Shown here in pieces: positions 12,988-31,990 of a stretch of DNA of 64,000 nt. Numbering within the stretch: position 1 is the stretch's first letter; each line of letters starts with the position of its first letter. Origin of the DNA: Burkholderiaceae bacterium (GTDB lineage Bacteria > Pseudomonadota > Gammaproteobacteria > Burkholderiales > Burkholderiaceae_D); assembly GCA_019232795.1 (NCBI GenBank), contig JAFANH010000027.1, positions 62,001 through 126,000 on the forward strand, in the 5' to 3' direction. Below the pieces are notes generated by a model. It worked only from the letters and a program-made list of their open reading frames with translations. It ran no database searches and was not told where the DNA came from. A program made the position numbers and the translations under genes.

Positions 12988-13136
12988 GTCCGGTTTGCTC
13001 AACAAGCCAGGCTAAGTCTAGCAAATATGAAACACAGGCAACAGATCTGCGTGTGCAATGGTGGAGTTTTCAGCTATATTCCCCACAAGAAATGCTAGAT
13101 GTTGGAGCCGCAAGGTCGGCAAGCCGGGGAAGCAAG

Positions 13137-15059: not shown

Positions 15060-15239
15060 GACAGTCCGCGCAACAGCGCTTCGATGCGAATGGGCAAGCG
15101 TCGGCTTCTCATCCCCCTGTCAAGGATCACAGCTTAACTTCCGGCGACCATTACCTAGACTGTTGGCACACGTGGATGACCCCGCGTGACGTCATCACTG
15201 GTTGTGTGCGTGGAGCAACCATCGAACAGGAGATTTGAC

Positions 15240-15983: not shown

Positions 15984-15997
15984 CGCTCAAAACGACA

Positions 15998-16032
15998 AAG
16001 CCGTTGATCTTGTGGACAAGAATCAACGGCTT
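15998..16032 (-). terminator. Hairpin downstream of tRNA-fMet
   Basis: AAGCCGTTGAT at 15998-16008 is matched by its exact reverse complement at 16022-16032, with a 13-base loop. It lies 7 bases beyond the CCA end of the minus-strand tRNA and 15 bases after the papain-like gene, so it may terminate both. The T tract on either side is short. Confidence 0.65.
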
Positions 16033-16038
16033 CCAATA

Positions 16039-16115
16039 TGGTTGCGGGGACAGGATTTGAACCTGTGACCTTCGGGTTATGAGCCCGACGAGCTGCCAGA
16101 CTGCTCCACCCCGCG
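16039..16115 (-). tRNA. Initiator tRNA-fMet (anticodon CAT)
   Basis: Read on the minus strand, the 77 bases form a full cloverleaf with the anticodon CAT in GGGCTCATAACCC and the T-loop GGTTCAAATCC, and the CCA end is encoded. Two features mark it as the initiator rather than the elongator. Position 1 is C facing A at position 72, an unpaired acceptor end, and the anticodon stem has three consecutive G-C pairs. It stands alone and is not part of a tRNA cluster. Confidence 0.97.
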
Positions 16116-16492
16116 TCTGATGTGCATCATTATAGCACGGGGTGTTGCATTGCAGCAGCATGTCCCCAGAAATTGAAGGGGAATAGCCGCACAAATGTGC
16201 CCGCCGCCTGCGGCCAAGGCCGGTTCGCGGCGCGTCCGCGCATGGTCTTGGCCAGCCTTGGGCGTGATGGCCGCGTTTACAATTTGTAACCCCCTGCGCG
16301 GCCGCTTCGGCGGACAATCTCTCCGGCGTTCCTGCTTGAGGCAGCGGTAGCGGCCGCCGGCAGCAAGAGTCCCTGTGGCAAAAAACAGGCCGATTTCATA
16401 GTATCCTTGAGCCTTTGCCAATTTCCTATCAGTAGCCCTTGCGGTAGCCAATCCGCGGATGGTCGGCAGCTAATAGATTTCCAGGAAGATTT
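16116..16492. other. Intergenic region between tRNA-fMet and a lipoprotein gene
   Basis: Apart from the tRNA promoter, no convincing gene is seen here. Short open frames on both strands have arginine/proline-rich compositions typical of chance frames. The last 100 bases are less GC-rich and probably hold the promoter of the downstream lipoprotein gene, whose ribosome binding site is AGGAAGA. Confidence 0.5.
16129..16134 (-). promoter_or_regulatory. Extended -10 promoter of tRNA-fMet
   Basis: On the minus strand the sequence reads TGCTATAATG, a perfect TATAAT preceded by TGC (the extended -10 form). It ends 13 bases upstream of the first base of the tRNA. No good -35 hexamer is visible at the normal distance, which fits an extended -10 promoter. 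Confidence 0.75.
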
Positions 16493-17095
16493 ATGAATCG
16501 AATGAAGGACATCGCAGCGTGGTGCAGCCTGGCTGCGGCCGCATTGTTGGCGGGTTGCGGCGGGGGCGGTTCCGACGCCTCCATCTCGGGTGCGGTGAGC
16601 GGCCTTGGCGCCGGCCTGTCTGTGGTCCTGGTCAACAACGGCGGCGATGCGCAGACCATTTCCGCCAATGGCAACTTCAGCTTCGACGGCAAGATCGCAC
16701 CCAACAGCGGCTACAACGTCACCGTCAAGACCCAGCCCACGGGCCAGACCTGCCTGGTGACCAGCGGTTCGGGCGTTATCGACTTTTCCGGCGCCAGCGT
16801 CGGCAACGTTGCCGTCACTTGCTATAACAACGTGACGGTGGGCGGTACGGTCACCGGCTTGAACGCAGGCGGCGTGGTCCTGCAAGACAACTTCAATAGC
16901 GCCGATACCGTGACCGTGAGCGCCAATGGCGGCGCCGGCGTGAACTTCACCTTCCCGCTGAAGCATGCGCTGGGCGACTCGTACAACGTCACGGTCCTGA
17001 CCCAACCGTCCAGCCAGGTTTGCACGGTGACGCAAGGGCAGGGCGGCATTACGGCCTGGTCCAATATCACCGGCGTGAGCGTGACTTGCCAGTAA
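16493..17095 (+). CDS. Lipoprotein with two cysteine-paired repeats
   Basis: The 200-residue protein has a lipoprotein signal ending in LLAGC, followed by a glycine tract. The mature part consists of two units of about 80 residues. Each starts with a (S/T)GxVxGLxxG-like segment, contains a YNVTVxTQP core and then QxCxV, and ends in VxVTC. The two cysteines in each unit are placed to form a disulfide. The composition suggests beta-sandwich domains exposed on the outer membrane. The next gene is a paralogue with the same plan. No named family is recognised, and the function (surface binding, adhesion or matrix) is unknown. Confidence 0.8.
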   Translation: MNRMKDIAAWCSLAAAALLAGCGGGGSDASISGAVSGLGAGLSVVLVNNGGDAQTISANGNFSFDGKIAPNSGYNVTVKTQPTGQTCLVTSGSGVIDFSGASVGNVAVTCYNNVTVGGTVTGLNAGGVVLQDNFNSADTVTVSANGGAGVNFTFPLKHALGDSYNVTVLTQPSSQVCTVTQGQGGITAWSNITGVSVTCQ

Positions 17096-17243
17096 GCGCC
17101 GATACCGGCAAGTTCCGCCAGTTTGCCGGTCAAGACGCTGCCAACCGGCCATGTCTGAGCAATCGGCGCGGCAATAACGCAATGCAATAACGATCAACCG
17201 CCCGCGCTTACGCCGGGCACAAGCGAAATACGAAGGACGCACG

Positions 17244-17894
17244 ATGAAGCTCGTCAATATCAATGGAATTTTGGCCTTTGCCCCCTGTATGGCGGCAGTC
17301 TTGCTGGCCGGCTGCGGCGGCGGCGCCAAGGTCGCATCCACAATCGGCGGCACGGTCTACAACCTGTTGCCCGGCACAACGGTGACTCTGCTGGAAAATG
17401 GCGGCAACTCGCTGCAGGTGACCAACAATGCGGCTACTGCCGGAACACCGGTCGGCTTCACGTTCCCCGGCACGCTGGAAGCCGGCAACGAATATATCGT
17501 CACTGTTGACACCGCCAATCTGCCCTTGGGCCAAACCTGTACGGTCGTCAATGGCATCGGCGTGGTCGAGCAGGCGACCGGCAACGTCAACGGCATCACC
17601 ATCCAATGCCTGCCGACCGTATCGGCCAACAATTACGTGCAGGGCACGATCACCGGCCTCGCCAGCGGCGCCCAGGTTACGCTGGAAAACAATGGCACCG
17701 ACAAGCTGACCGTTACCGGCAACGGCCAAAATCCGCAGCCGTTCTCCTTTGTAACGCCGATCGTCTTGAACGGCAGCTACAGCGTGGTGGTGTCGCAGCA
17801 GCCTTCCAGCCAGACTTGCACGGTGAGTAGCGGCTCCGCGACGGGGAAGATTTCTGCGGGCACGGTGCCGAACGTAGCGGTCTCTTGCCAATAA
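17244..17894 (+). CDS. Lipoprotein, paralogue of the preceding gene
   Basis: This 216-residue protein has a lipobox in VLLAGC followed by GGGA, then two repeats of the same type as its upstream neighbour. IGGTVYNLLPG...QTCTVVNG...GITIQC forms the first and VQGTITGLASG...QTCTVSSG...VAVSC the second. The conserved QP(S/T)xQxC core and the terminal Cys after VAVS are clear in both genes. The pair probably arose by tandem duplication, since each copy contains an internal duplication as well. An inverted repeat, ACCGGCAA at 17104-17111 with TTGCCGGT at 17123-17130, lies between the two genes. Function is unknown. Confidence 0.8.
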   Translation: MKLVNINGILAFAPCMAAVLLAGCGGGAKVASTIGGTVYNLLPGTTVTLLENGGNSLQVTNNAATAGTPVGFTFPGTLEAGNEYIVTVDTANLPLGQTCTVVNGIGVVEQATGNVNGITIQCLPTVSANNYVQGTITGLASGAQVTLENNGTDKLTVTGNGQNPQPFSFVTPIVLNGSYSVVVSQQPSSQTCTVSSGSATGKISAGTVPNVAVSCQ

Positions 17895-18052
17895 GTTTGC
17901 GCGTCAGCTTGCCGGTAGGCTTGTCAAGAATTGTCACAATTCCGAAATCGCAATTTACCCACCGCTGTTCTATACTGAAAGCGAAGCTGAAACCAGGCTG
18001 GCATGGTGCCGGCCGCGGGTTTTAAATGGCTGAACAGTGGAGAGAAGGGCGA

Positions 18053-18469
18053 ATGAAATTGCTTAAATCTGTTCTGGTGGCGGCAGCACTGCTTTCGGCC
18101 AGCGCATTGAGCCTGGCGGAAACCCATCAGCAGCGGGCATTCTTCGGTCACGGCGCGCGTGAAGGCCGTGTTGCGCACAATGTGCAGGGTCCGGGAGGCT
18201 GGCATGGGCACTGGCATGGCTACACCACCGTGTATGTCGGCGGCTGGCCCTGGTATTCACCATGGTTCTACGGCTATGCCTGGCCTTATTACCCGTATGA
18301 CACGGCCGTTGCGCCGGCAGCTCCGGTCGAGTATGTGCAAATGAATCCGCCTGCAGCCGATGCAGCGCCGGCAATGTGGTACTACTGCGCGAATCCGGCA
18401 GGGTATTATCCCTACGTCAAGGCTTGCCCCGGCGGCTGGCAGCAGGTTCAGCCGCAACCCCCACAGTAA
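18053..18469 (+). CDS. Small exported Trp/Tyr/Pro-rich protein
   Basis: The ATG at 18053 follows a GAGAAGGG ribosome binding site and gives 138 residues with a signal peptide ending near ALSLAET. The mature protein has a His/Gly-rich stretch (GGWHGHWHGY), then WPWYSPWFYGYAWPYYPYD. It ends in the pattern WYYC...GYYPYVKACPGGWQQV, which recurs in many short exported proteins of proteobacteria and contains two cysteines likely to form a disulfide. It is probably envelope-associated, but no function is known. The histidine cluster could bind metal, which is speculation. Confidence 0.75.
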   Translation: MKLLKSVLVAAALLSASALSLAETHQQRAFFGHGAREGRVAHNVQGPGGWHGHWHGYTTVYVGGWPWYSPWFYGYAWPYYPYDTAVAPAAPVEYVQMNPPAADAAPAMWYYCANPAGYYPYVKACPGGWQQVQPQPPQ

Positions 18470-18505
18470 TTTTTCCGTAAGTATTCTTCCTCCGCCGACA
18501 GGCAA

Positions 18506-18901
18506 CTAGCCGTTATGGCCGGTTGCCTCCTTGAACGCCCACAAGCGGCTACCCGTGAAGTTCCAGATCAGGCCGATCCCGGTGGTCAGGAATTGCGCGA
18601 TCCAGTAATTCCATCCCAGGTGGTGCACCAGCAGGCCCATCAAGCCGGTGTTGATGCACCAGCCAACACCCAGCACGCTGAAGTATTTGGAGGCTGCCTC
18701 GACGTGGGTCTTGCCGCTCTCGAACGTGAAAAAGTAATTGAGCAGGTAGTTGACCACCGAACCGCAGACGTAGCCGACACCGGAAGCCAGCGCCGCCGGT
18801 ACGCCTGCCAGTTCGACCCCGGCCCACAGCACGGCGTATTGGACAGCAGTGCCGCACAGACCGACGGCGGCGAAACGAAGGAATTGGCGGGGCAGGGACA
18901 T
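18506..18901 (-). CDS. GtrA family membrane protein
   Basis: The 131-residue protein has four hydrophobic segments and the typical GtrA opening RFAAVGLCGTAVQYAVLW, with YFFTFESGKTH in the loop and RLWAFKEA near the end. Family members help translocate undecaprenyl-phosphate-linked sugars across the inner membrane for O-antigen or teichoic acid glycosylation. No glycosyltransferase partner adjoins it; the nearest gene on the same strand is the exported adenosine deaminase 45 bases upstream. Confidence 0.88.
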   Translation of the reverse strand: MSLPRQFLRFAAVGLCGTAVQYAVLWAGVELAGVPAALASGVGYVCGSVVNYLLNYFFTFESGKTHVEAASKYFSVLGVGWCINTGLMGLLVHHLGWNYWIAQFLTTGIGLIWNFTGSRLWAFKEATGHNG

Positions 18902-18946
18902 GCGGCTACTCGGTTTGGCAAAGTCCGCATTTTCTCACAGGACAGG

Positions 18947-20443
18947 CTACTTCCTGGCCAATTTAGCCACGTCTGCCTCGAATTTCTCGAAGCGCGCATC
19001 GAGCCGCTTTACCTGCACCTTCTTGTCTTCCGCACTCAGGAAGGAATAGCGGATGCTGTTGTACACCACCTGCTTGAGCGTGTCGTAGGACGGCCTGTAG
19101 CGGCTCGCGAATAACAGATATTCGGCGCTGATATTGCTGCGCGAGACGCCGGCATCGTCGGTGGCGATGACGAAAGGCACGTGATGACGCAGGTAGACCG
19201 TGACCGGGTGCATCTGCTCTTTCACGCCGAGAATGAAGGCGTTGCTGCTCAGGCAGACCTCGACCGCGACATTGCGGCGCTTCAAATCTTCCAGCAGCTG
19301 GTCCGGCTCGCTTTCATAGGTGACGTCGATACCGTGGCCGATGCGTTCGGCGCCGGCCACGTCGAGCGCCGCGCGCATGTGGTCGCGCAGGCCTTCCGGC
19401 GGCACCATGCCCAGCGTCAGCTCGCCGGCGTGCAGATCGAGGCGAACGTCGGGGAAGCGCTGCCTGAGAAAGCGGAACATCCGCATGTGCAAGCCATAGT
19501 CGCGCATGGCAACGTAGCCGTTTTCGGGGCCGACGAAATTGACGCCGACCACCAGCTTGTTGTCGTGCGCCGCGGCAAACGCCGTATACAGATTTGAAAA
19601 CACTGTGCCGGGAGGATTGTTGCGCGTGGTGTAGCTCTGGAAGCGCAGCGTGAAGTCGTTGTCGTCGATGCCGGCAGCGTAGTTGCCCAGCTTATTGCGG
19701 TAATCGGCGATGGCTTGTTGCGCAGCGGCGTCGTGGTCGATGAAGTCGGCATATTGCTGCAGCGCCTGCTCGATCGTGTGCGCATCGCTGTCGCTGCTGA
19801 GCGCATTGAGCTGGGACTCCAGCGCCGGGTTGGCAATGGCCGGCGAACCCTTCAGCATGGTTTCCAGATATTGCAGATTGTCGGCCTTGGCCTGCTGCTT
19901 GAGCAGCTTCAAGCCATCCTGCGGAGAATAGTCGCTGGCCGGGCCGAAAAAGCCGAAAGTGTTGAAGAACTGCTGATCGGGCGCCGGCTCTTCATGGGAA
20001 TGATTGTCGAAGTCCTTGTCCGACCAGCGCATCAGCAATTGCCGGTAGAAGCCGTTGTCCTTGCGGATGGCGTCGGCGCTCAGGCAATCGGCGGATGTGG
20101 CGCTGGGGCGCGAGGTGTCGATGCGGAATTTTTCGCGGTGATTGGGTATGTCATCCACCCGATACACGCAATAGCCCTGTTTGGCGACCCAGTCGAGGTA
20201 GGTTTCCGCGTACAGCGCGCCACTGTAGTGGTGGTGGATGTCGCCGCCCTTGGGTAGCATGGTCATCAAGAGATTGAGTTCGGCCAGCTGTGCCGGCGCT
20301 TTGCCGGCAATTAACTCTCCGTAAAATTGCTTGGTGAACCGGTAATTCTTTTGCGCTTCGCCATTGTCGTTGCCGGCCTGCGCCGCCCCTGTCAACAATC
20401 CGGCAAGAAGAATGATGGAAAGTATGGCAGGGCGCTTATTCAT
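18947..20443 (-). CDS. Exported adenosine deaminase family protein
   Basis: ATG 20443 has AAGGA at the right distance, unlike the ATG two codons earlier, and gives 498 residues with a signal peptide ending near TGAAQAGND. The metal-dependent deaminase motifs are all present: KGGDIHHHYSG (metal His pair), DLHAGE (catalytic Glu), ERIGHG (metal His) and ATDDAGV (metal Asp). The protein is longer than cytosolic adenosine deaminase and has an N-terminal extension, like secreted ADGF-type enzymes. It probably deaminates adenosine or a related nucleoside in the periplasm for purine salvage or nitrogen supply. GtrA follows on the same strand. Confidence 0.88.
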   Translation of the reverse strand: MNKRPAILSIILLAGLLTGAAQAGNDNGEAQKNYRFTKQFYGELIAGKAPAQLAELNLLMTMLPKGGDIHHHYSGALYAETYLDWVAKQGYCVYRVDDIPNHREKFRIDTSRPSATSADCLSADAIRKDNGFYRQLLMRWSDKDFDNHSHEEPAPDQQFFNTFGFFGPASDYSPQDGLKLLKQQAKADNLQYLETMLKGSPAIANPALESQLNALSSDSDAHTIEQALQQYADFIDHDAAAQQAIADYRNKLGNYAAGIDDNDFTLRFQSYTTRNNPPGTVFSNLYTAFAAAHDNKLVVGVNFVGPENGYVAMRDYGLHMRMFRFLRQRFPDVRLDLHAGELTLGMVPPEGLRDHMRAALDVAGAERIGHGIDVTYESEPDQLLEDLKRRNVAVEVCLSSNAFILGVKEQMHPVTVYLRHHVPFVIATDDAGVSRSNISAEYLLFASRYRPSYDTLKQVVYNSIRYSFLSAEDKKVQVKRLDARFEKFEADVAKLARK

Positions 20444-20550
20444 CGGCATTCCTTTTTGTGAGATATCAGCCAAGGCACAATGCGCAGGACATTAACATAG
20501 AGCTTGTGGTTTGCGTAATACAGCTTGCGAGTATGTGTCCGGAGCTGCAA

Positions 20551-20579
20551 TTGACAAGCGCTAACTTTGGTCATACCGT
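20551..20579 (+). promoter_or_regulatory. Possible promoter upstream of the TPR/beta-barrel gene
   Basis: A perfect TTGACA at 20551-20556 is followed after 17 bases by TACCGT, a poor -10 hexamer. It is the best sigma-70 candidate in the 216-base divergent gap and points toward the beta-barrel gene. The weak -10 suggests activation or a chance match. Confidence 0.3.
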
Positions 20580-20689
20580 ATCCTTGCAGCTTCGCATCAG
20601 CTCAGCGCATTACCTGAGCGCATCACCCAAGTACAGCATTCAACTGCATCGCCCGACCGCATCGCCACAGTTTTTCGGGGGGAAAGCTT

Positions 20690-22078
20690 ATGCAAGTGCG
20701 TCTGAATCTGCAGGGGAAGCCCATACTGCGCGGTTTCCTGACCCTGTTATGCCTGACTTGCCTGGCCGTCTACCCGACCACCAGCAGGGCCGCCGACGAT
20801 TCCACTCTCGAGCAAGCGCGCACGCTGATGGCGCAAGGCAATGCGCGCGCCGCCTATGCCATGCTTGAACCGCTCGAATTCGATCGCGCCGGCGACGTCG
20901 AATTCGATACGCTGCTGGGCGTGGCCGCGCTCGACAGCGGCAGCCCCGACAAGGCCACGCTGGCCTTCGAGCGTGTGCTGGCGGTCGACCCGAATGCGGC
21001 GGGCGCACGCCTCGATCTGGCGCGCGCCTATTTTGCGCTGGGCGACTTGCCGCGCGCGCGGCAGGAACTCGACCTGCTGACCGCCAATAACCCGCCGCCG
21101 GCGGCAAGGGTCGTGATCGACAAATACAAGGCGGCGATTGCCGAGCGCGAAAAGAAAAAAGCCACCACAACCACCGCCTACGCCGAAGGCTTCATCGGGT
21201 ACGACAACAACATTACCTCGGTGGTCAGCGACTTCGGCGGCGCCGTGCTGGCCAGCTACAATCTGGCCGGCTTCCTGCCGACCGGCAATTCCGTGATGCG
21301 CACTTCCTCGATTTTCGGCGCGGCCGGCGGGTTTGCCGTCGACCACCGGGTCGACGACCATTGGTCGCTGGCAGGCGGCCTGGATGCGCACTATCGCGGC
21401 GTCACCCAGGACGACAATTACAGCAGCGAAGAACTCGACGCCCGCGCCAGTGCGGCCCGCAGCAGCGGCGCCGACACCTGGCGTGCTGGCATCACGCTGC
21501 AAGACTTTTTACAGCGCACCGACGTGCCGACCGACAACCGCAATGCCATCGGCTTGAACTTCGAATGGCGCCACACCTACAACGACTACAATCAGGGCAG
21601 CGTGTTCGGCGTAGTGACGCGCCAGCGCTACCCCGACATCGCCGTCGACGACATCAACTCCACCATCGTAGGCGCCGGTTGGCTGCATCTGTTCCAGGGC
21701 CCGCATCATGGGTTGATGTACGCGAACCTGATCGTCGGCCAGGAAAACGCCATCAATCCGCTGGTCAACGGTTCCGACAACAGCCGCCGCGATGCCGGCG
21801 GCCGCCTGTATATGCAGTTGTCGGCCAACGACCAAGTGGACTGGTTCGCCAATTTCGGCTTGCTGCAGCGGTCGGACCGCTCGCCCTATGCGCGCGCCAT
21901 TACAGTGGAATACGGGAACGACCACCTCAGTGACGCTACCGTCGGCTGCACTTGGCGGCCGTACCCGCAGTGGAGCCTGCGGCCGCAAGTCTCGTATTCC
22001 GAAAATCGTTCCAATGTTGCCCTGAGCGACTTCCATCGCCTGGAGGCACTGCTCACCGTCCGCTACGAGTGGCACTAA
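20690..22078 (+). CDS. TPR plus beta-barrel outer-membrane protein, Slam/DUF560-like
   Basis: The 462-residue protein has a signal peptide cleaved near TTSRAADD. A TPR region follows at about residues 40-140 (LMAQGNARAAYAMLEPL, LDLARAYFALGDLPRARQEL), then a short charged linker. The C-terminal 300 residues are built of alternating strands typical of a 14-strand barrel (YAEGFIGYDNN, WRAGITLQDFLQR, LNFEWRHTYND, ATVGCTWRPYPQWSLRPQVSYSEN). This order is that of surface lipoprotein assembly modifiers (DUF560), which move client proteins across the outer membrane. The next gene, 21 bases on, encodes a large exported protein that may be the client. Family assignment is from architecture, not from a search. 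Confidence 0.65.
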   Translation: MQVRLNLQGKPILRGFLTLLCLTCLAVYPTTSRAADDSTLEQARTLMAQGNARAAYAMLEPLEFDRAGDVEFDTLLGVAALDSGSPDKATLAFERVLAVDPNAAGARLDLARAYFALGDLPRARQELDLLTANNPPPAARVVIDKYKAAIAEREKKKATTTTAYAEGFIGYDNNITSVVSDFGGAVLASYNLAGFLPTGNSVMRTSSIFGAAGGFAVDHRVDDHWSLAGGLDAHYRGVTQDDNYSSEELDARASAARSSGADTWRAGITLQDFLQRTDVPTDNRNAIGLNFEWRHTYNDYNQGSVFGVVTRQRYPDIAVDDINSTIVGAGWLHLFQGPHHGLMYANLIVGQENAINPLVNGSDNSRRDAGGRLYMQLSANDQVDWFANFGLLQRSDRSPYARAITVEYGNDHLSDATVGCTWRPYPQWSLRPQVSYSENRSNVALSDFHRLEALLTVRYEWH

Positions 22079-22099
22079 ATTCAGACCGCGAGGATGATC

Positions 22100-24895
22100 A
22101 TGAAATCCACTTATCTGCGATTCCGTTCCGAGTCTGTTTTGCTGGTGTTGCTGTCTCTGTTGCTGCTGTGGTCGAACGTGGCGATGGCGGCCGTGGCCGG
22201 CTACGTGCAATTCGCCGCCGGCGACGTGCGCATCGTCGACCTGGCCGGCAAGGAGCGTGCGGCGCAAAAAGGGCAGCCTATCAATGAAGGCGAAACGGTA
22301 TTGACGGCCGGCGGCGCGTCGGCGCAGCTGCGCATGGTCGATGGCGGCATCCTGGCGCTGCGCCCCGATACGCAACTGAAGGTCGACTTGTACACCTTCA
22401 GCGGCGCGGCAGACGGCAGCGAGAATGCCTTGCTGTCGCTGGTCAGGGGAGGTTTGCGCGCCATTACCGGCTTGATCGGCAAGACCAACAAGGAAAAATT
22501 GAAATTGCAAACGCCGACGGCGGTGATCGGCATCCGCGGTACCGACCACGAACCGGTGGTGCTGCTGGCGTCGCCACCCGGCACACCGGCGCCCAACCCG
22601 CCCGGCACTTACGACAAGGTCAACGTCGGCGCCACCAGCCTGACGACGCAGGTGGGCACGACGGTGATCAACGCCAACCAGATTGGCTATGCGGCGTCGC
22701 TGACCCAGCAGCCGGTGATCCTGCCGAAACTGCCGGACTTCTACCGTGCGACGCCCACGCCGGTCGCCCGTCAGGACAAGCAGGGGCAGCAAGGCAGTAC
22801 GCAACAAGGCGGGCAACAAGGTTCGCAGCAAGGTTCGCAACAGAGCTCATCGTCGAGCCAGAGCACGCAGAGTACCTCGAGCAGCAGCACGTCCTCTTCC
22901 ACGTCTACCACTTCTACCGCTACGGCAACTGCCACCGGCGACGTCAGCACGGTCACGGCGGTGCTGCCGGCTGCTCCGTCCAATCTGACGGCGGTCGATT
23001 CCAGCGGCAACGTGTTGAGCCTGGCCAACCAAAGCGTGACCACGGCGAGCGGACTGACGCAAGCCTTGAGCAGCAGCACGGTGTCGACACTGGGCGGCGG
23101 GGCCGTCTACAACGAAGTGCTGTTGGTCTATCCGTATACCACGGGCGGTCCATCCTTCCCGCAAACGCCGACCTTGGGCGGCCCCGGCCTGAATCTGAGC
23201 CGTGACGCCAGCGGCAATCTGACCGGCTTCACTTACAGCGGCAGCAGCAAAAACGTCGGCGGCCTCAACATCGGTTCCGGGGCGGGCAATGTGCAGGTCA
23301 CTGCAACGCAAAGCGGTTCGACGATGACCGATTTCGGCAGCGATGCGGCCACCGGCCTGGCTTGGGGCCGTTGGCAGGGCGGGCAAGTCAGCGGCAGCGC
23401 GCAGTACTACGGCACTGACGCCAGCGGCAACTCGGGCTATGGCGCCAACAACTCCTCGGGCGCATTCGTCATCGGCGGCACGCAAAACGAATCGGTCACG
23501 CTGGGCAGCGCCAGCCTGCACTGGATCACAGGCCTTGCGCCCACGCCCAGCTACCTGTCTCAAGTGTTGACCGGCACCGCCAATTACACGCTGCTGGGCG
23601 GCACCCATCCGACCGACCTGTCGGGCAACGTCGGCACCTTGGGTGGCGCTACCCTGAACGTGAATTTCGGGCTGCAAACCGCCACCGCCGATGTCAACTT
23701 CTCCATAGGCGGCAACAGCTGGACCATGCAAAGCGGCACCATGCAATTGAACGGTGATGGGCAGTTCAATGCCTACACCAATTGCGCGTCAAAGTGTTTC
23801 AGCTCCGTCTCGGTCACCAAGAATGGCGTGAACGTCAGCAGCTCGCCTACTCCCACCGGCTTTGTACTCGGCACCATGAACGGCTACCTTACCGGCACCG
23901 GCCTCAATGGCGCCGCGCTGGAATATGCCGTGCAGGACTTCGGTGTGCCGCCGCCGGCCGGCACCAATGCCTACAACCTGATCCAGGGCGTGGCCGCGCT
24001 CTCCGGGCCTACCCAGAATGTCAATACGCCGTTTCGTGCGGTCGGCACCGAAGACGGCTGGAACGACCTGGGTAATTTGCTGGGCGCGGGCGGCACGCCG
24101 CCTCCCCAATATCATGGCAACATCAACGGCGGGCAGCAGGCGCCCGCCGACGTGGTTGACAGCTCAGCCGGCTTGACCGCCTTCCTCGGCCAGGCCGCCG
24201 GGTATACGGCGGCGAATTCATCGGTTACCGTGCCGTCGCCGCAGTCGCCGCAATTGGCTGCCGTCAAGATCGGCACCGCAGTCAATGCCGACGTCGGTTC
24301 GACTTCCATAGGCGGCATCACGGTTTCCTGGGGGCGCTGGGCCGGCGGCACGATCGACGTCTACACCCCGGACGGCTCCACCTTGCTGGGCACGATAGAC
24401 AACAGCAACCGCAGCGTCCATTGGGTCGACACCTCGGTCCTGACATCCGATTTCAATGCCATGCCGGCCAGCGGCACTGCCACCTACACCGTGGCGGGCA
24501 ATACCTCGCCGACCGATTTCAGGGGCAATGTCGGCACATTGACCTCGGCCACGCTCAATGCCGACTTCGCCAACCTCAAGGTCAACGCCGGCATTAACGT
24601 CAGTTTCAACGCGTCCACCAACACCAGCTCCTGGGCCTTGACCGCGAACAATATCCCGCTCACCGGCGCCGACTTCAAGACCGGAACTTCGCAGAACGGC
24701 ATCAACGGCGTCGCTACCACGGTTACGTGCAGCGGGGCTTCGTGCAGCGGGCAGACGGTCGGCTCGCTGGAGGGACACTTCATTTCGGGCGCCCAAGGCG
24801 CAGTGATGCTTTACAGCATGGCCGGCGGCACGCTCAGTGCTTCCTCGTTTACGCCGGCCATTGGGGTTACCGGCCTGGTGGTGATGAAACACTGA
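22100..24895 (+). CDS. Large exported FecR-domain protein with TbpB-like repeat domains
   Basis: The ATG at 22100 is preferred over one at 22094 because GCGAGGA is correctly spaced, giving 931 residues. A signal peptide ends near NVAMAAVAG. A FecR domain spans about residues 35-150 (GDVRIVDLAGKERAAQKGQPINEGETV, LKLQTPTAVIGIRGTDHE), followed by a Gln/Ser/Thr-rich low-complexity linker near 230-280. The remainder contains two related beta-rich units, each with VHW(V/I), GTATYTxxG, PTDxxGNVGTL and a terminal GHFISGAQGAVMLYS or GYLTGTGLNGAALEYAV segment. These recall the beta-barrel lobes of TbpB-like proteins exported by Slam systems. There is no lipobox, so the protein should be soluble or surface-held. 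It ends at a palindromic repeat. Confidence 0.7.
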   Translation: MKSTYLRFRSESVLLVLLSLLLLWSNVAMAAVAGYVQFAAGDVRIVDLAGKERAAQKGQPINEGETVLTAGGASAQLRMVDGGILALRPDTQLKVDLYTFSGAADGSENALLSLVRGGLRAITGLIGKTNKEKLKLQTPTAVIGIRGTDHEPVVLLASPPGTPAPNPPGTYDKVNVGATSLTTQVGTTVINANQIGYAASLTQQPVILPKLPDFYRATPTPVARQDKQGQQGSTQQGGQQGSQQGSQQSSSSSQSTQSTSSSSTSSSTSTTSTATATATGDVSTVTAVLPAAPSNLTAVDSSGNVLSLANQSVTTASGLTQALSSSTVSTLGGGAVYNEVLLVYPYTTGGPSFPQTPTLGGPGLNLSRDASGNLTGFTYSGSSKNVGGLNIGSGAGNVQVTATQSGSTMTDFGSDAATGLAWGRWQGGQVSGSAQYYGTDASGNSGYGANNSSGAFVIGGTQNESVTLGSASLHWITGLAPTPSYLSQVLTGTANYTLLGGTHPTDLSGNVGTLGGATLNVNFGLQTATADVNFSIGGNSWTMQSGTMQLNGDGQFNAYTNCASKCFSSVSVTKNGVNVSSSPTPTGFVLGTMNGYLTGTGLNGAALEYAVQDFGVPPPAGTNAYNLIQGVAALSGPTQNVNTPFRAVGTEDGWNDLGNLLGAGGTPPPQYHGNINGGQQAPADVVDSSAGLTAFLGQAAGYTAANSSVTVPSPQSPQLAAVKIGTAVNADVGSTSIGGITVSWGRWAGGTIDVYTPDGSTLLGTIDNSNRSVHWVDTSVLTSDFNAMPASGTATYTVAGNTSPTDFRGNVGTLTSATLNADFANLKVNAGINVSFNASTNTSSWALTANNIPLTGADFKTGTSQNGINGVATTVTCSGASCSGQTVGSLEGHFISGAQGAVMLYSMAGGTLSASSFTPAIGVTGLVVMKH

Positions 24896-24999
24896 GAAGC
24901 TCAAACAAAATGCGCCTGGCGTTGTTGCTACTCCTCGCCGTACGTCATGTACTGTCTGCGTCGTAGCGCCTAGCCAGACACATTTTGTTAGAGCTTCTT
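24895..24999. repeat. Imperfect palindrome, family E copy 2 (about 105 bp)
   Basis: Terminal arms AGAAGCTCAAACAAAATG and CATTTTGTTAGAGCTTCT match over 18 positions with one mismatch. The centre, GTACGTCATGTAC, is itself nearly self-complementary. The interior shares TGGCGTTGTTGC and GCCAGACACATTTTG with copy 1 at 12,914, in inverted orientation. The first base is the last base of the FecR-protein stop codon, and the other end is 5 bases from the stop codon of the convergent cyclase gene, so it may act as a bidirectional terminator. Confidence 0.9.
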
Positions 25000-25004
25000 A
25001 AAAG

Positions 25005-26678
25005 CTATGGAAATGGCCCTAGCCCCCCTTCGGTTCCATCGGGCTGTTCATGATGGTGGTGCATCATGCCGTAGAACTGCGCATTGTTGCGCCCGCTTTC
25101 CTTGGCGCGGTACATGGCGACGTCGGCGTTTTTCACCAGGGTGTTGAGGTCGGCGCCGTCTTGCGGGTAGCAGCTCACGCCTATGCTGGTGGTGACGTTC
25201 ACGACGTGTCCCTCGAGATGGTAGTCGGGTTCCATGGCATTGAGGATCTTGCCGGCAGTGCGCGCCACCGCTTCCATGTCCCGGCAATTTTCCAGCAGCA
25301 CGACGAATTCGTCCCCGCCCAGGCGCGCCACGATGTCGCCCTGGCGCACGCTGTCCGCCAGGCGCGTGGCTACCTGCTGCAGCAGGTGGTCGCCGGTTTC
25401 GTGCCCGAGTTCGTCGTTGATCAGCTTGAAGCGGTCGAGGTCGATGAAGAGAATGGCGAACGCAGTGCCGGCGGGGTCGGCTTTTGCCAACAGGTTGCGC
25501 AAGGTGTCCATGAACATGGCGCGGTTCGGCAGACCGGTCAGTTCATCATGGAAGGCGCGGTGCGCCAGTTCCTGCTGGGCGCGTTTGCGCGCGTCGATGT
25601 TCGATAGCGCAATCAGCAGGCAATCCTGGCGGTTGTAGGAGATGCGCTGCGAGGAAAACAACGTCCAGAAAGGCGTGCCCTCGGTATCGCGCAGCAGCAC
25701 CTCCCGGTCGCGCAGGCTGCCCTGGATGCGCAACGCGGCCAGCAACTGGTTGCGATCACCCTTGCGCACATAGAAGCGGCGCGCCTGCAGACGATGCAGG
25801 GCATTGGGCGCGACCTTGAACTGGGCGAGCGCATGGTCGTTGGCGTAGACGATCGCTTCGTCGGCAATGCGCACGATGACGATAGGAAGCGGCGCAAACT
25901 GCAGCAATTCGCGCATCTGCTTTTCGCCCTCGAGCAACGCGCCCTGAACGCGTTCGCTTTGGCGCACCACGCGGCGCGAAAACAGATACGCCGCCAACAG
26001 CAGCACCGAAACCACGGCAAACATCATGAACAGCAGCACGGCCTGCAGCTTGCGCGCGGCTCGTCCCAGGGTATAGGAAAAATCCTCTTCGCGCGGCACC
26101 AGGCTTTTGTTCAGTTCGAAGATCTGTTCCAGGTAGGCCCGGGTACCGGCGTCGTCCAGGGTGCCGGCCTCGAGCGCGGCATGCAGGTGCTCGGCAATGC
26201 CGACGAGTTGATCGATGTCCGCGTCGGCAGCGGTCCAGATCAGGACGGCCTGGTTGATTTCGTAGACGCCGCGGAAATTGCGGAACAGGCTGATCATGCC
26301 ATCCACGTCGTCAGGGTGGTTGCGCCCCTGGATGAGGCCGGCGGCGGCGATTTTCAGATCGGGATTGCGTTTCTCCAGCTCCAGCCGCGCCTGACGGTCG
26401 CCGTGAATGACGGTGAGCGACTGCAGATAGCTGTCGTAATAGGATTGGTCATGGTAACGGGCGTAGCGGGCCAGCGAATAGACCATATCCTTCTGCGCCT
26501 TCGACCACAGGCTCTCGCCGCCGATATAGGCGCGCACAGCCGACAATACGCTGATGGAGCAATAGGTAAAGGCCAGCAGGAAGACCACGATCGCCACCCA
26601 TAGCCAGGCGATCGCAATCAGGCGGCGGCTCTTGCCGTTCGCCATGGGTGCCGTATCGATATGCAGGAACCTCGCCAT
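25005..26678 (-). CDS. Membrane diguanylate cyclase with PAS and GGDEF domains
   Basis: The 557-residue protein has a first transmembrane helix (about residues 22-45), a helical periplasmic domain of about 160 residues (four-helix-bundle-like), a second helix (LQAVLLFMMFAVVSVLLLAAYLF), a PAS domain and a C-terminal GGDEF domain. The motif is the canonical GGDEF with RQGD five residues upstream, so synthesis of cyclic di-GMP with product inhibition is expected. The C-terminus ends with a His-rich tail (MMHHHHEQ). AGAAGG precedes the ATG. It is transcribed away from kup and ends against a palindromic repeat. Confidence 0.9.
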   Translation of the reverse strand: MARFLHIDTAPMANGKSRRLIAIAWLWVAIVVFLLAFTYCSISVLSAVRAYIGGESLWSKAQKDMVYSLARYARYHDQSYYDSYLQSLTVIHGDRQARLELEKRNPDLKIAAAGLIQGRNHPDDVDGMISLFRNFRGVYEINQAVLIWTAADADIDQLVGIAEHLHAALEAGTLDDAGTRAYLEQIFELNKSLVPREEDFSYTLGRAARKLQAVLLFMMFAVVSVLLLAAYLFSRRVVRQSERVQGALLEGEKQMRELLQFAPLPIVIVRIADEAIVYANDHALAQFKVAPNALHRLQARRFYVRKGDRNQLLAALRIQGSLRDREVLLRDTEGTPFWTLFSSQRISYNRQDCLLIALSNIDARKRAQQELAHRAFHDELTGLPNRAMFMDTLRNLLAKADPAGTAFAILFIDLDRFKLINDELGHETGDHLLQQVATRLADSVRQGDIVARLGGDEFVVLLENCRDMEAVARTAGKILNAMEPDYHLEGHVVNVTTSIGVSCYPQDGADLNTLVKNADVAMYRAKESGRNNAQFYGMMHHHHEQPDGTEGGLGPFP

Positions 26679-26884
26679 GGAACCCTTCTTCTTGTTCTAC
26701 AGCAGACTGCAAGTTACACCACCGCTTCGCGGTTTGGTGACATTTTTTCAAGAATATAATTTCTATGTGGAAATATTACTCCGTTCTGCGGAAGTGCATA
26801 GGCACAGAGCGTCGTTGACCAAAATGCCAGCGTGAGCCGATAAGGTCGTGTATGCGAGGGAAACTGAAGCGGGAAAGAAGGGCG

Positions 26885-26910
26885 ATGCAGAACCCTCGCT
26901 CGTTCTGCAT
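26885..26910 (-). terminator. Possible terminator after kup
   Basis: ATGCAGAAC at 26885-26893 and GTTCTGCAT at 26902-26910 form a perfect nine-base stem with an eight-base loop, 52 bases beyond the kup stop codon on the minus strand. The following bases are pyrimidine-rich but contain no long T run. The gap from 26,679 to 26,961 holds nothing else apart from a GC-rich dyad at about 26,927-26,948 and the AT-rich leader of the cyclase gene. Confidence 0.4.
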
Positions 26911-26961
26911 TTCGGATTCACACTGCGCACCCCCGCGGCGGGGAGTGCGGTTGGAGAAGCG

Positions 26962-28851
26962 TCAGATCTGGACTTGCGTACCCAGTTCGATCACGCGGTT
27001 CGGCGGAATACGGTAGTAGTCGGCCGCGCCGCGCGCGTTGCGCGACATGGCGACGAACAAGTGCTCGCGCCACAAGGCCATGCCGCCGCCGGGGCCGGCG
27101 ATCAGGGTCTGGCGGGCGATGAAGAACGAGGTTTCCATCATCTCGAATTCCATGCCCTTGTCCTTGCACAGTTCCAGTGCTTTCGGAATGTCGGGCTCGT
27201 CCTTGAAGCCGAGGTGTACGTCGAGCTGGAAGCAGTTGTGGCCGAGGTCGGCGATCTTTACCTGTTCTGCGGGCGGCAGCCAGGGCACGTCGGCGGTGTG
27301 TATGGTCAGGAATACGATGCGCTCGTGCAGGATCTTGTTGTGCGAGAGATTGTGCAGCATCGCGTGCGGCACGCCGTCGGTTTCGCTGCGCAGGAAAATG
27401 GCGGTGCCTGGCACGCGCTCGGGCGGCGCCTTGAACAGCGAATCGAGGAAACCTTCAAGCGGAATCGCGTGCATCAGCAGGTTGCGGAACACCAGCTGGC
27501 GGCCTTGCTTCCAGGTGGCCATGATCAGGAACACCACGGCGCCGAGCGAAAGCGGGAACCAGCCGCCGTGCGTGATCTTGAGCGCATTGGCCGAGAAGAA
27601 GGAAACGTCGATGATCAGGAAGAAAACGGTGGCGGCGCAGCTCAGGAACAGGTTGTATTTCCAGCCGTAGAAAATCACGAAGAAGGTCAGCACCGTGGTC
27701 ACCGCCATGGTGCCGGTCACCGCAATGCCGTAGGCGGCGCCCAGCGCGGCCGAGGAGCCGAAGCCGACCACGGCCAGCAATACCGCAATCATCTGCGTCC
27801 AGTTGATGGCGGGGATGTAGATCTGGCCGATCTCGCTGACCGAAGTGTGCGTCACGCGCATGCGCGGCATATAGCCGAGCGCGATCGCTTCGCGGGTCAT
27901 CGAGAAGGCGCCGGAAATAGTGGCCTGCGAAGCGATGATGGTGGCCGCAGTGGCCAGCGCCACCAGCGGGTACACGCTCCAGGCGCCGAGCTGGTGGTAG
28001 AACGGGTTGTCGGCCGTACTCGGGTCGGTCAGCAGCAAGCCGCCCTGGCCCAGGTAGTTGAGTGCGAGGGAAGGGAAGGCGATGAAGAACCACGCGGTGC
28101 GGATCGGTTCCTTGCCGAAATGTCCCATGTCGGCGTACAGCGCTTCAGCGCCGGTGAAGGCCAGCACCACGGCGCCCAGGGCGACGAACGCCACCCAGGG
28201 GTTGGCGCTGATGAAAACGAAAGCATGCCAGGGATTGACGGCGGACAGGATCTGCGGCGCCTTGCCGATATTGATCACGCCCATGGCCGCCAGCGCCACG
28301 AACCAGATCGTCATCACCGGGCCGAACCACTTGCCGATGCCGCCGGTGCCGTGCGACTGGAATGAATACAGCGCGATCAGCACGCCCACGGTCAAGGCCA
28401 CCACGTAAGGCTTGAAGAAAGGCGTCGCCACCTCGAGGCCTTCGACGGCGGACAGCACCGAAATGGCCGGCGTGATCACGGAATCGCCATAGAACAGCGC
28501 GGCGCCGATCAAACCCATGATGGTGAGCGGGATGTACCAGCGCGAAGCCTTGCCGACCGAAGTCTTGGCCAACGCCATCAAGGCCATGATGCCGCCTTCG
28601 CCGCGGTTGTTGGCGCGCAGGATCAAGGTCACGTACTTGAGCGTGACGATCAGCGTCAGGCCCCAGAAGATCAGCGAAATCACGCCGAACAGGTTGAGCG
28701 GATTGAGCGCCAGGCCGTGCTCCGCTTCGAACACGGTTTGCAAGCTATACAGGGGGCTGGTGCCAATGTCGCCGTAGACGATGCCGATGGCGGCGAGAGT
28801 TAATGCGGGAAGGCTGCTTTTCTGGTGTTGCTGTATCGCGGTGTCACTCAT
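26962..28851 (-). CDS. kup: KUP-type potassium uptake protein
   Basis: The 629-residue protein has about 12 membrane helices. It opens with the family signature LTLAAIGIVYGDIGTSPLYSL and contains ALKYVTLIL-type and YGDSVITPAISVLSAVEGLE segments characteristic of KUP/HAK/KT carriers, followed by a C-terminal cytoplasmic domain. Length agrees with the E. coli protein. It imports potassium, probably with protons. The gene is divergent from the pullulanase gene, with a 271-base AT-rich region between them. No kdp or trk genes are nearby. Confidence 0.95.
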   Translation of the reverse strand: MSDTAIQQHQKSSLPALTLAAIGIVYGDIGTSPLYSLQTVFEAEHGLALNPLNLFGVISLIFWGLTLIVTLKYVTLILRANNRGEGGIMALMALAKTSVGKASRWYIPLTIMGLIGAALFYGDSVITPAISVLSAVEGLEVATPFFKPYVVALTVGVLIALYSFQSHGTGGIGKWFGPVMTIWFVALAAMGVINIGKAPQILSAVNPWHAFVFISANPWVAFVALGAVVLAFTGAEALYADMGHFGKEPIRTAWFFIAFPSLALNYLGQGGLLLTDPSTADNPFYHQLGAWSVYPLVALATAATIIASQATISGAFSMTREAIALGYMPRMRVTHTSVSEIGQIYIPAINWTQMIAVLLAVVGFGSSAALGAAYGIAVTGTMAVTTVLTFFVIFYGWKYNLFLSCAATVFFLIIDVSFFSANALKITHGGWFPLSLGAVVFLIMATWKQGRQLVFRNLLMHAIPLEGFLDSLFKAPPERVPGTAIFLRSETDGVPHAMLHNLSHNKILHERIVFLTIHTADVPWLPPAEQVKIADLGHNCFQLDVHLGFKDEPDIPKALELCKDKGMEFEMMETSFFIARQTLIAGPGGGMALWREHLFVAMSRNARGAADYYRIPPNRVIELGTQVQI

Positions 28852-28993
28852 CGATCACTCGTTGTTCTTGTGCGCGGGTAGGGCGGTAGTATGCCTTAAA
28901 GCGGACCGTTCCGGTTGGTCCCGAGTCAATGGTTGTTGCAGACTCACATTGCATAGGTGTTGTCGAGATTCGGGATTTGTGTAAGTTGTTTTG

Positions 28994-29095
28994 CTACATT
29001 TGTAGAGAATATGTAGTGTGGACGCTGGAATTCGCTTGGCAATTGACCAGTCTAAGACTTTGCCGTATTGTTCGAAATATATGTAGTTTTACTAC
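28994..29095 (+). promoter_or_regulatory. Repeated TGTAG dyads upstream of the pullulanase gene
   Basis: The AT-rich gap between kup and the pullulanase gene holds CTACATTTGTAG (28994-29005), an ATATGTAGT half-site a few bases on, and GTAGTTTTACTAC (29083-29095) directly before the pullulanase start region. All share the TGTAG half-site, and ATATGTAGT occurs twice. This looks like an operator array for a dimeric repressor or activator, as might be expected for a starch-utilisation gene. The regulator is not in the window. Confidence 0.45.
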
Positions 29096-29122
29096 TTAAA
29101 ACAATAAATGACGGAGACCAGC

Positions 29123-31990
29123 ATGCCAGCCATCCCCATCCTTGGCCAATTCGTTCGTGGCGTCGTCTCAACATTGATTGTTGCAGCCACGCTCACCGTC
29201 AGCGCCTGCGGTGGGGGAGGCGGGGGTGGCGCAGGCGCGTATGGCGGCGGTAGTGCCGGCAGTACCAGCAGCAGCGTCAGCCTCAGCGGCGCGCGTGCCG
29301 TGTGGCTGGCGGCCGATACGCTGGTCTGGCCTGGGGCCAACACCGGCAACAGCTACCAGTTGTTGGCAGCCCCCAACGGTGGCCTCAGTGCAGTGAGCAG
29401 CAGTGCCAATGGCTCGGCCACTGCGTATCCGCTCAGTGTGTCGTCGGCCGGTTTCGGCGGCTTGTCAGCGGCCTTGCAGGCCAAATATCCGCAATACGCC
29501 GGTGCCGCGGTGCTAAAGCTGACCCCCTTCAGCCAGGCGCAGTTGAATAGCATTGTCAGCGGCGAAATTGCCGTCGTCGAATCGAGCAATGGCCAAGCGG
29601 TCGATGGCACGCAAGTGCAACTGGCGCCGCTGCTCGATGCGGTCTACGCGCCTCGCGCGCAATCTGCCGCGCTCGGCCTGTCCTTCAGCAACGACGTGCC
29701 CAGCTTCGCCTTGTGGGCACCCACGGCACAGTCGGTCAAGCTCAATGTCTTCGACAGCGCCAGCGCGACCACACCGTCATCGACGGTGGCCATGAGCATG
29801 GATCCGGCCAGCGGCATCTGGCGTTATGCAGCCGCCGACAGCAGTTGGACTAACGTCAAGTACTACAGCTATGCCGTCGCCGTGTATTCGCGCTATGCCA
29901 ATAACACCGTAGTGACCAACACCGTTGCCGATCCCTATGCGGTGTCGTTGAACGCGCTCGACAGCACCACCGTCGGCACCAGCGCCGGCAACCTGAATGC
30001 CATGGTGTTGAACCTGGCCGATGCGCCGGCCATGCCTTCGGGCTGGACCAAGCACGTGCAGACCGGTTTGCCGCCTACACTGGACGGCACCGACAGCGCC
30101 ATCTATGAATTGCACATCCGCGACTTTTCGGCCAACGACTCCAGCGTGGCGTCGGCCATGGTCGGCAAATACGAGGCCTTCAATCTCGCCAATGCGGGGG
30201 CCACTAGCGGCATGAAGCATCTGGCCGCGCTGGCGCAAGCTGGCCTCACCCACGTGCACCTGCTGCCACCGGTCGAATTCGCCAGCATCGATGAGGTCCA
30301 TTGCGCCACGCCCGCCATCGCGGCCGCCACCGGCGCCAGCCTGACGGCCGAGCAAGCGGTGATCGCCACGCAAAATACGGATTGCTTCAACTGGGGCTAC
30401 GACCCCATCTTCTACGGCGTGCCGGAAGGCAGCTATTCGAGCAATGCCGCCGACGGCGGTGCGCGCGTGCGCGAATTCCGCGACATGGTCATGGGCCTGC
30501 ACGGCATCGGCCTGCGCGTGATCCTGGACGTGGTGTACAACCACACGCCGGCCAGCGGCCAGGGCAACGTCTCCATCCTCGACAAGATCGTGCCCGGCTA
30601 CTACTACCGGCTCGATGCCAATGGCAACGTCACCGACCAGTCCTACGCCGGCGCCGACCTCGCCGCCGAAAACGCCATGACCGAAAAGCTGGTGATCGAC
30701 ACGCTGGTGCGCTGGGCCGACCAGTACAAGGTGGACGGCTTCCGCTTCGACATCATGAGCCTGCTGCCCAAGCAAGTGATGCTGGACGCGCAAAGCGCGC
30801 TCAACGCCGTGGCGCTGGCCGACGGCCGCCGCACGGCAAGCGGCCCGGGCGTCTACCTGTACGGCGAGGGCTGGACGCAAAACGGCCTGAACTTCGTCAA
30901 CGCCCAGCAAGCCAATATGGCCGGTACCGGCATCGGCAGCTTCAATGACCGCCTGCGCGACGCTACACGCGGCGGCAGCCCGATGGACAGCGGCGCCGCC
31001 ATGGTCACGCATCAAGGCTTCATCAACGGCCTGTGCTACGACAACAACGACGGCTCCAGTTGCAGCACCGCCGGCGCCAACATCAGCTGGTGCGGCAGCG
31101 GCAGCCTGACCCAGCAGCAATGCCTGTTCCTGCTGCAAAACCGCATCAGCGTCGGCCTGGCCGGCAATCTCGCCAGCTTCCCGCTCAACGCCACGACCAC
31201 CGGAGCGCAGGTCGACTACTTTGGCGCCGACACCGGCTACACCGCCGCGCCGCAGGAAAACATCGCCTACATCTCGGTGCACGACAACGAAACCGTGTTT
31301 GACGCCAGCCAATACAAGCACCCGGTTACTACCAGTGCTGCCGACCGTGCGCGCGCCCAAGTGGTCGGCCTGTCGCTGGTAGCCTTGGCCCAGGGCGTAC
31401 CTTTCTTCCACGCCGGCGACGACTTGCTGCGCTCGAAGTCCATGGACAGCAACAGCTTCAATGCAGGCGACTACTTCAACCGCATAGACTGGACTGGCGC
31501 AACCAATAACTGGGCGGTCGGCGCGCCGCCGCAAAACACCGGCAACAACGCCGCCAACCTGGCTACCATGACGCCCTTGCTGAACAATACGGGGCTGGCA
31601 ACCGGCCCCACAGACAGCAACCACGCCACGCTGGCCTTCCAGGATTTCCTGCGCCTGCGGCAAGACACGTCCATGTTCCGCCTCAAGACGGCGGCGGCGG
31701 TCAACAGCTGCGTCAGCTTCCCCGACCAGGGCGCGCAGCAGCGGGGCCTGATCGTGATGCGCATTTCTGGCGCGGCCGGCTGCGGCGACAGCAAGTACAA
31801 GAGCATCGTGGTGCTGTTCAATGCCAACAAGCTAGGGCAGAGCTTCACACTGGCAAGTTATGCAGCGAGCAATGTGGTCTTGCATCCGCTGCAGGCAGGC
31901 GGCAATGATGTGGTGGTGAAGAATGCGGGCTTCGCGGCCGGCGTGTTCAGCGTGCCGGCGCGCACCACGGCGGTGTTTGTGCAGCAGTAA
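29123..31990 (+). CDS. Pullulanase-type alpha-1,6-glucosidase lipoprotein
   Basis: The ATG at 29123 follows GGAG with six-base spacing and is preferred over the ATG at 29108, giving 955 residues. A lipoprotein signal ends in LTVSAC followed by a glycine tract. A CBM48-like domain (SFALWAPTAQSVKLNVFD, about residues 190-290) precedes a GH13 barrel. The barrel has the four conserved regions: region I VILDVVYNHT, region II GFRFDIMS with the nucleophile Asp, region III YGEGW with the acid/base Glu, and region IV ISVHDNET. The C-terminal domain is beta-rich. It should cleave alpha-1,6 branches of pullulan or glycogen on the cell surface or in the periplasm. No maltose transport genes adjoin it. 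Confidence 0.93.
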   Translation: MPAIPILGQFVRGVVSTLIVAATLTVSACGGGGGGGAGAYGGGSAGSTSSSVSLSGARAVWLAADTLVWPGANTGNSYQLLAAPNGGLSAVSSSANGSATAYPLSVSSAGFGGLSAALQAKYPQYAGAAVLKLTPFSQAQLNSIVSGEIAVVESSNGQAVDGTQVQLAPLLDAVYAPRAQSAALGLSFSNDVPSFALWAPTAQSVKLNVFDSASATTPSSTVAMSMDPASGIWRYAAADSSWTNVKYYSYAVAVYSRYANNTVVTNTVADPYAVSLNALDSTTVGTSAGNLNAMVLNLADAPAMPSGWTKHVQTGLPPTLDGTDSAIYELHIRDFSANDSSVASAMVGKYEAFNLANAGATSGMKHLAALAQAGLTHVHLLPPVEFASIDEVHCATPAIAAATGASLTAEQAVIATQNTDCFNWGYDPIFYGVPEGSYSSNAADGGARVREFRDMVMGLHGIGLRVILDVVYNHTPASGQGNVSILDKIVPGYYYRLDANGNVTDQSYAGADLAAENAMTEKLVIDTLVRWADQYKVDGFRFDIMSLLPKQVMLDAQSALNAVALADGRRTASGPGVYLYGEGWTQNGLNFVNAQQANMAGTGIGSFNDRLRDATRGGSPMDSGAAMVTHQGFINGLCYDNNDGSSCSTAGANISWCGSGSLTQQQCLFLLQNRISVGLAGNLASFPLNATTTGAQVDYFGADTGYTAAPQENIAYISVHDNETVFDASQYKHPVTTSAADRARAQVVGLSLVALAQGVPFFHAGDDLLRSKSMDSNSFNAGDYFNRIDWTGATNNWAVGAPPQNTGNNAANLATMTPLLNNTGLATGPTDSNHATLAFQDFLRLRQDTSMFRLKTAAAVNSCVSFPDQGAQQRGLIVMRISGAAGCGDSKYKSIVVLFNANKLGQSFTLASYAASNVVLHPLQAGGNDVVVKNAGFAAGVFSVPARTTAVFVQQ

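Follow-up and report, generated by a model that had tools for sequence, protein, structure and literature searches.

What do two neighbouring genes do together when one encodes a putative outer-membrane barrel and the other a large exported protein with a FecR domain? A locus in a 64,000-nucleotide stretch of DNA from a Burkholderiaceae bacterium (assembly GCA_019232795.1), which we call the window, raises this question; the window's contig, C58, belongs to a genome of 2.95 Mb with 87% completeness. The first gene, P1 (20690-22078, plus strand), encodes 462 residues, with a signal peptide recognized by eye, a predicted periplasmic tetratricopeptide repeat (TPR) domain at about residues 36-155 and a SlipAM-like outer-membrane barrel at about 160-462. 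The second, P2 (22094-24895, plus strand), encodes a 933-residue, putatively exported and non-lipidated protein, also with a signal peptide recognized by eye, in which a FecR domain is followed by two C-terminal TbpB-like units. The genes stand head to tail, and P2 probably starts at its second ATG (22100), giving 931 residues and a 21-bp gap after P1. A preliminary description of this DNA had reported the same open reading frames (ORFs), gap and domains and had read the pair as a Slam/DUF560-like transporter with its client; the observation was confirmed, and the interpretation is partly supported. In the reading we lean towards, the two genes form a divergent module of the Slam/type XI (DUF560, SlipAM) kind, in which P1 would export the TbpB-like lobes of P2. 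As such, it seems to be a branch of an established secretion system that has drawn little notice.

The N-terminal part of P1 is the periplasmic TPR domain that SlipAM/DUF560 proteins carry (TPR_19, 53.4 bits against a Pfam cut-off of 25). AlphaFold2 (AF2) models were computed from alignments of three rows, the query and two relatives found by a scan of genome contigs. In the P1 model, seven helices occupy residues 38-155, with block means of 69-83 in predicted local distance difference test (pLDDT) over residues 41-150. These are followed by 14 strands at 160-461, which are modeled at low confidence (mean pLDDT 53.7, with residues 156-255 below 50) and counted by manual grouping of the strand list, 160-165 and 167-169 being taken as one.

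The likeness to Slam becomes plainer among the relatives of P1. SlipAM (PF04575) was matched by 48 of the 61 family members at E ≤ 0.01 (best 8.6e-16; the window's P1 is not one of the 48), TPR_Slam by 17 of 61 and BBP2_2 by 36 of 61; the barrel ORF of locus L171 is split in two, and set A7 took only its 262-residue piece. Relatives in genomes G130 (42.9 bits), G098 (34.9) and G233 (31.1) exceed the SlipAM cut-off of 22. All three align with P1 along the barrel and have in common with it a G.D.N motif early in the barrel and, close to the barrel end, SN followed by R; the G233 barrel is 30.9% identical to P1 across 304 aligned barrel residues. The name that fits P1 best is that of a divergent SlipAM relative, the link being made through intermediates. 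A different reading comes from a Foldseek search of the P1 model, whose best matches include PelBC (E 3.0e-5) and BcsC (3.3e-5): P1 could be a TPR-barrel porin or polysaccharide exporter like BcsC, PelB or PgaA, with P2 purely periplasmic and the genes merely co-transcribed. Given that 48 of 61 members match SlipAM and that the partner has TbpB-like lobes, we consider this very unlikely, and Pfam identified no polysaccharide synthase among the 10 neighbor proteins checked.

The two genes keep each other's company. A scan of the family with P1 yielded 11 loci in nine of 145 genomes at E ≤ 1e-20, the window included, and a FecR partner directly adjoins the P1 homologue at all 11 (at L042, adjacency was read from match coordinates). 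Genome G065 (locus L053) belongs to the same genus as the window, and L054 is the locus of G062; G037, again of the window's genus, gave no P1 match. Because strong P1 matches occur in only nine of 145 genomes and are absent from this same-genus relative, the pair is accessory within the family. Across the order Burkholderiales, a profile of nine barrels (A6) had matches in 135 of 399 genomes. We fetched its 60 best hits in a row, skipping three as from model genomes (G000, G233, G186), and so covered 52 genomes from other families. A FecR ORF adjoins the barrel gene in 60 of these 60 loci, with a median gap of 10 bp; in 59 it sits downstream, on the strand of the barrel gene, a count that describes best-scoring hits of a model whose own sequences are paired. 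At L198, the adjoining FecR ORF is on the opposite strand. The pairing of barrel and FecR genes is more than chance, and conserved pairing was one of the checks named in the preliminary description. Distances among the parts of the pair also show co-inheritance (Mantel r 0.55-0.80, 0 of 500 permutations; 40 of the 61 loci, with no species tree as control).

What kind of client would P2 be? Its FecR-like N-terminal domain spans about residues 34-152 (22193..22549, plus strand) and contains a FecR match (PF04773, residues 68-151) of 34.4 bits against a cut-off of 24, which makes P2 a member of that family. In other proteins FecR domains are periplasmic, and they are commonly interpreted as components of iron or sigma-factor regulators. 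In Pfam, FecR was found in 59 of 59 partners at E ≤ 0.05, the partners having been picked beforehand with a FecR profile (set A8, which omits two of 60 partners truncated at contig ends). The first half of the P2 domain resembles the retention module of LapA-type adhesins (NF033682) and PDB entry 5ix9_A, annotated 'Antifreeze protein' (phmmer, E 1.7e-4), which we take to be the retention region of MpAFP. NF033682 matches 38 of the 59 partners at E ≤ 0.001, the highest score seen being 40.6 bits (L183). Beyond the domain, residues 221-296 (22754..22981, plus strand) form the Ser- and Gln-rich linker noted before; by composition it is a Ser/Thr/Gln linker, with 21 S, 14 T and 14 Q among 76 residues. 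P2 has no lipobox, its first cysteine being residue 564, and the called sequences of two of 59 partners show a lipobox-like N-terminal stretch, each time within an ORF start that is too long. A FecR protein without a lipobox had been thought an unusual substrate; for the P1 barrel family, such a partner is the rule.

The C-terminal half of P2 consists of two units, unit 1 at residues 297-645 (22982..24028, plus strand; WGRW motif at 424) and unit 2 at residues 636-933 (23999..24892, plus strand; WGRW at 746), the latter with a predicted TbpB-like barrel at its end. The units are homologous: unit 1 and unit 2 are 28-29% identical, and both are matched by the single unit of the relative at L054 in G062, with which unit 1 was aligned. 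One or more WGRW units are found in 47 of 59 partners, with up to five per partner. The maximum of five belongs to a 1696-residue FecR partner (L199, 895-5982). The partner consensus ends in G.F.G..A..AG..Y.

The resemblance of these units to TbpB emerges when profiles are compared with profiles. A profile of partner tails (47 rows, the motif-bearing ones among 59 partners) aligned with a TbpB_B_D profile (25 rows) over 102 columns in hhalign (91.9%, E 6.8e-7, score 42.9); the maximum over 200 column shuffles was 14.6, and the reversed profile scored 11.7. The TbpB_B_D side was drawn from 25 of 30 fetched loci, leaving out L079 and L081 (the FecR-type ones), L075, L082 and L089, and it keeps L080, a row under the Pfam cut-off. 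By this sensitive comparison, the C-terminal domain is homologous to the TbpB-type barrel. Direct matches to a TbpB profile occur in four of 59 partners (E ≤ 2.2e-4), L172 and L193 having two matching lobes apiece; with the partner sequences reversed, 0 of 59 match at E ≤ 1. NF041636, 'Slam-dependent surface lipoprotein', likewise matches four of 59 partners at E ≤ 0.001; in L183, the match covers residues 309-428, which is the C-terminal lobe (20.6 of 80 bits). Finally, G186 encodes a 1152-residue FecR protein with a C-terminal TbpB_B_D match of 21.6 bits against a cut-off of 26 (the genome search, counting its neighbors in, gave 26), and 1.1 kb downstream, past one intervening ORF, lies a SlipAM gene (86.1 bits).

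Lobe export seems to us the likeliest function because a Slam-type barrel family and a motif-marked, cargo-like lobe (47 of 59 partners) stand side by side in nearly all loci that we examined. P2 would cross the inner membrane by means of its signal peptide and would be received in the periplasm by the TPR domain of P1. By homology to Slam systems, the P1 barrel may then recognize the TbpB-like C-terminal lobes and move them through the outer membrane; the Ser/Thr/Gln linker, which is flexible, could thread a barrel. Once exposed, the lobes would bind or adhere. The weakest step concerns the FecR domain, which would most likely stay in the periplasm. Only tentatively do we suggest that it anchors P2 there, taking the place of a lipid anchor in the style of LapA adhesins; we propose this location because FecR is the constant element of the partners and its first half resembles the LapA retention module.

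Alternatively, P1 might release the whole of P2 into the medium as a soluble cargo of the hemophilin type, in which the FecR domain would simply serve as N-terminal effector domain. This is unlikely in our view, as FecR domains are periplasmic in other proteins, and as the linker and the LapA-like first half suit tethering. It does agree with the missing lipobox, and known soluble cargo of type XI secretion systems (T11SS) combines SPI signal peptides with a C-terminal barrel (PMC8406197).

Several results weigh against export of TbpB-like lobes by P1. P1 itself scores 15.3 bits on SlipAM, under the cut-off of 22, and the Slam/DUF560 call made for it earlier therefore holds through its relatives and not by a direct match. 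P2 gave no Pfam match to TbpB_B_D (PF01298) at E ≤ 1, and we did not file it as a TbpB_B_D protein; among the 59 partners, there was none at E ≤ 0.05. WGRW is absent from 12 of 59 partners, some of which are without a lobe-like end. For the retention module NF033682, P2 reaches 25.3 of 50 bits, below the threshold for membership. The pairing is also one-way: matches to P2, chiefly to its FecR part, turn up in 92 of the 145 genomes of the family, and strong matches to P1 in nine. Furthermore, barrel distances track FecR (Mantel r 0.80) better than the lobe (0.62). Unit 2 was modeled poorly by AF2 (pLDDT 37.8), and none of its Foldseek matches is significant. Of the two tandem TbpB-like units in the preliminary description, the tandem stood, and the likeness is carried by profile comparison together with weak structural matches.

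Those weak matches are rich in HpuA, HphA, fHbp and TbpB barrels. T11SS cargo makes up nine of the first 26 Foldseek rows for unit 2, all at E ≥ 0.12, and 34 of 50 VIA rows (Z ≤ 4.3), many of the latter being repeated fHbp entries; in these counts, HpuA, LbpB and 2lfu, presumably NHBA, were taken to be Slam cargo. With so poor a model, we set the predicted structure of unit 2 aside as primary evidence and kept its matches as weak support.

Loci outside Burkholderiales, where we examined the 20 best, add to the case against and bring in another possibility. A FecR partner is present at 18 of the 20 (15 downstream on the same strand, three divergent), so that FecR is the more constant partner. 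At L208 and L210 there are instead proteins of 1206 and 1020 residues that match the lobe profile and not the FecR profile, with N-termini that are FecR-like by eye. Only one of the 18 FecR partners (L214) matches the lobe profile, and 17 have no detectable lobe. Among nine of these 17 whose tails we read, eight tails are Pro/Gly-rich, acidic or otherwise of low complexity, and that of L218 could by eye be a worn lobe. CHASE2-profile matches, with no further check beyond the profile, occur at 10 of the 20 loci; because whole cyclase proteins went into the profile, its weaker matches may stem from other parts. Lobe-less FecR partners together with CHASE2-profile matches keep a signaling role among the possible readings. 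P1 would then be an outer-membrane receptor or gate and the FecR domain a periplasmic relay, in some relatives ending at an inner-membrane CHASE2 cyclase.

For the window, we find such a signaling chain doubtful. There is no CHASE2 match on the window's contig, the three in the genome being on other contigs; 47 of 59 Burkholderiales partners have WGRW units; and glycosyltransferase family 41 (GT41) neighbors, described below, suit surface proteins. On the other side, a CHASE2-type gene is within reach at seven of the 60 Burkholderiales loci (two of the seven checked with Pfam), and in G233 a CHASE2 cyclase gene lies upstream of the pair. Locus L108 (4928-9586) has the order FecR, CHASE2 cyclase, SlipAM-like barrel, the barrel being sub-threshold at 18.0 bits and a Crp-like ORF, so judged by eye, lying beyond. 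There are precedents as well: in Sinorhizobium meliloti, CHASE2 cyclases depend for their response on NsrA, an outer-membrane barrel described together with CyaK and CHASE2 (PMC7529298, PMC13001267), and an operon joins LysM-FecR with a CHASE2 kinase (PMC5192318). The likeness of NsrA to P1 is one of layout only, an outer-membrane barrel tied to CHASE2 cyclase signaling, and the NsrA barrel is placed at residues 600-1200 (PMC7529298). Among the lobe-poor relatives we regard such a chain as a serious alternative, and in the window's type signaling and display could operate side by side. The two might even be combined, with a Slam-like barrel acting as a receptor: the FecR protein would be threaded through the outer membrane, its outer lobes would sense a ligand, and the inner FecR domain would relay, sometimes to a CHASE2 cyclase. 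We rate this quite unlikely; if true, the same object would be both secretion machinery and receptor.

Where does a lobe-exporting pair fit among known systems? Slam, NilB and HrpB, the DUF560 or SlipAM proteins of T11SS, have in common with P1 an N-terminal TPR domain, a C-terminal barrel (in P1 predicted, and SlipAM-like) and a gene beside that of the predicted cargo. In contrast to these, the window's P1 stays under the Pfam cut-off, its predicted client has a FecR domain and no lipobox, and no TonB-dependent receptor is encoded among the 10 flanking ORFs scanned in the window. The P2 family resembles TbpB, fHbp, HpuA and hemophilin, cargo with a C-terminal eight-stranded barrel, in the 102 columns over which its lobe profile aligns with TbpB_B_D, and TbpB in addition has tandem lobes, as P2 does. 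However, P2 is too divergent for the Pfam model, its units are marked by WGRW and number up to five in one partner, and it has a FecR domain in place of the lipid anchor. Unlike LapA-type adhesins, whose N-terminal retention module it matches below threshold, P2 carries a full FecR domain.

DUF560 proteins constitute the T11SS, and a 2021 survey studied their cluster 1; its authors say that the other nine clusters, rich in soil and water bacteria, are likely to transport as-yet-unknown cargo (PMC8406197). A 2025 study added a marine cluster 3, in which the known barrel domain rarely co-occurs and DUF1194 often does (PMC12282271). 'FecR' appears 0 times in the main texts of the two papers, and in the open-access papers searched we found nothing that joins FecR with DUF560, T11SS or surface lipoprotein assembly modifier, nor any recognizable description of the pair. 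For a field with unknown cargo, the P1/P2 family offers a concrete predicted cargo tightly paired with a barrel. It also points to a means by which a surface protein could be held in the outer membrane with no lipid, and would link FecR domains to surface display.

Genes around the related loci were also compared. A TPR gene on the same strand lies one to three genes past the FecR gene in 13 of 60 loci, always from one sequence cluster, and it proved to be Glyco_transf_41 (GT41) in three of three tested (L146, L169, L183) and likewise in G130 and G098. GT41 includes the adhesin glycosyltransferase HMW1C. Together with the up to five WGRW units, these neighbors suit a surface protein; the window's genome has GT41 genes too, on other contigs. 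In G098, a very large ORF precedes the barrel gene (L037, 3-4883) and is filamentous haemagglutinin-like by eye alone. At L141 (2017-4389), a gene for a GAF-MshEN-T2SSE ATPase stands beside the pair along with a CHASE2 cyclase gene, and a gene belonging to the same cluster occurs at L188 too.

In the window, the neighbors of the pair look unrelated to it among ten ORFs scanned (12927-31990): a gene with an adenosine-deaminase domain lies upstream on the opposite strand, and a PAS-GGDEF gene and a potassium transporter gene lie downstream of P2, also on the opposite strand. PAS-GGDEF diguanylate cyclase genes flank the region on both sides (12927-15059 and 25005-26678); the first of them also matches dCache, below threshold. 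Neither P1 nor the L166 barrel protein had a match in plasmid searches, Rfam had none in 20400-25300, and promoter and terminator scans were uninformative. The genome's second FecR gene (L232, 6854-7837) is solitary, with no barrel gene in the surrounding 15 kb. Directly 3' of P2, a palindromic element occupies 24895-24998, with 26-nt arms that are 88% complementary and an RNA fold z of −6.1. It is a dispersed repeat resembling repetitive extragenic palindromes (REP) or miniature inverted-repeat transposable elements (MITE), with 21 matching pieces in the genome including itself. One fragment of it, in which a 16-mer matches with two mismatches, lies on the minus strand at 12953-12984, inside the first GGDEF ORF.

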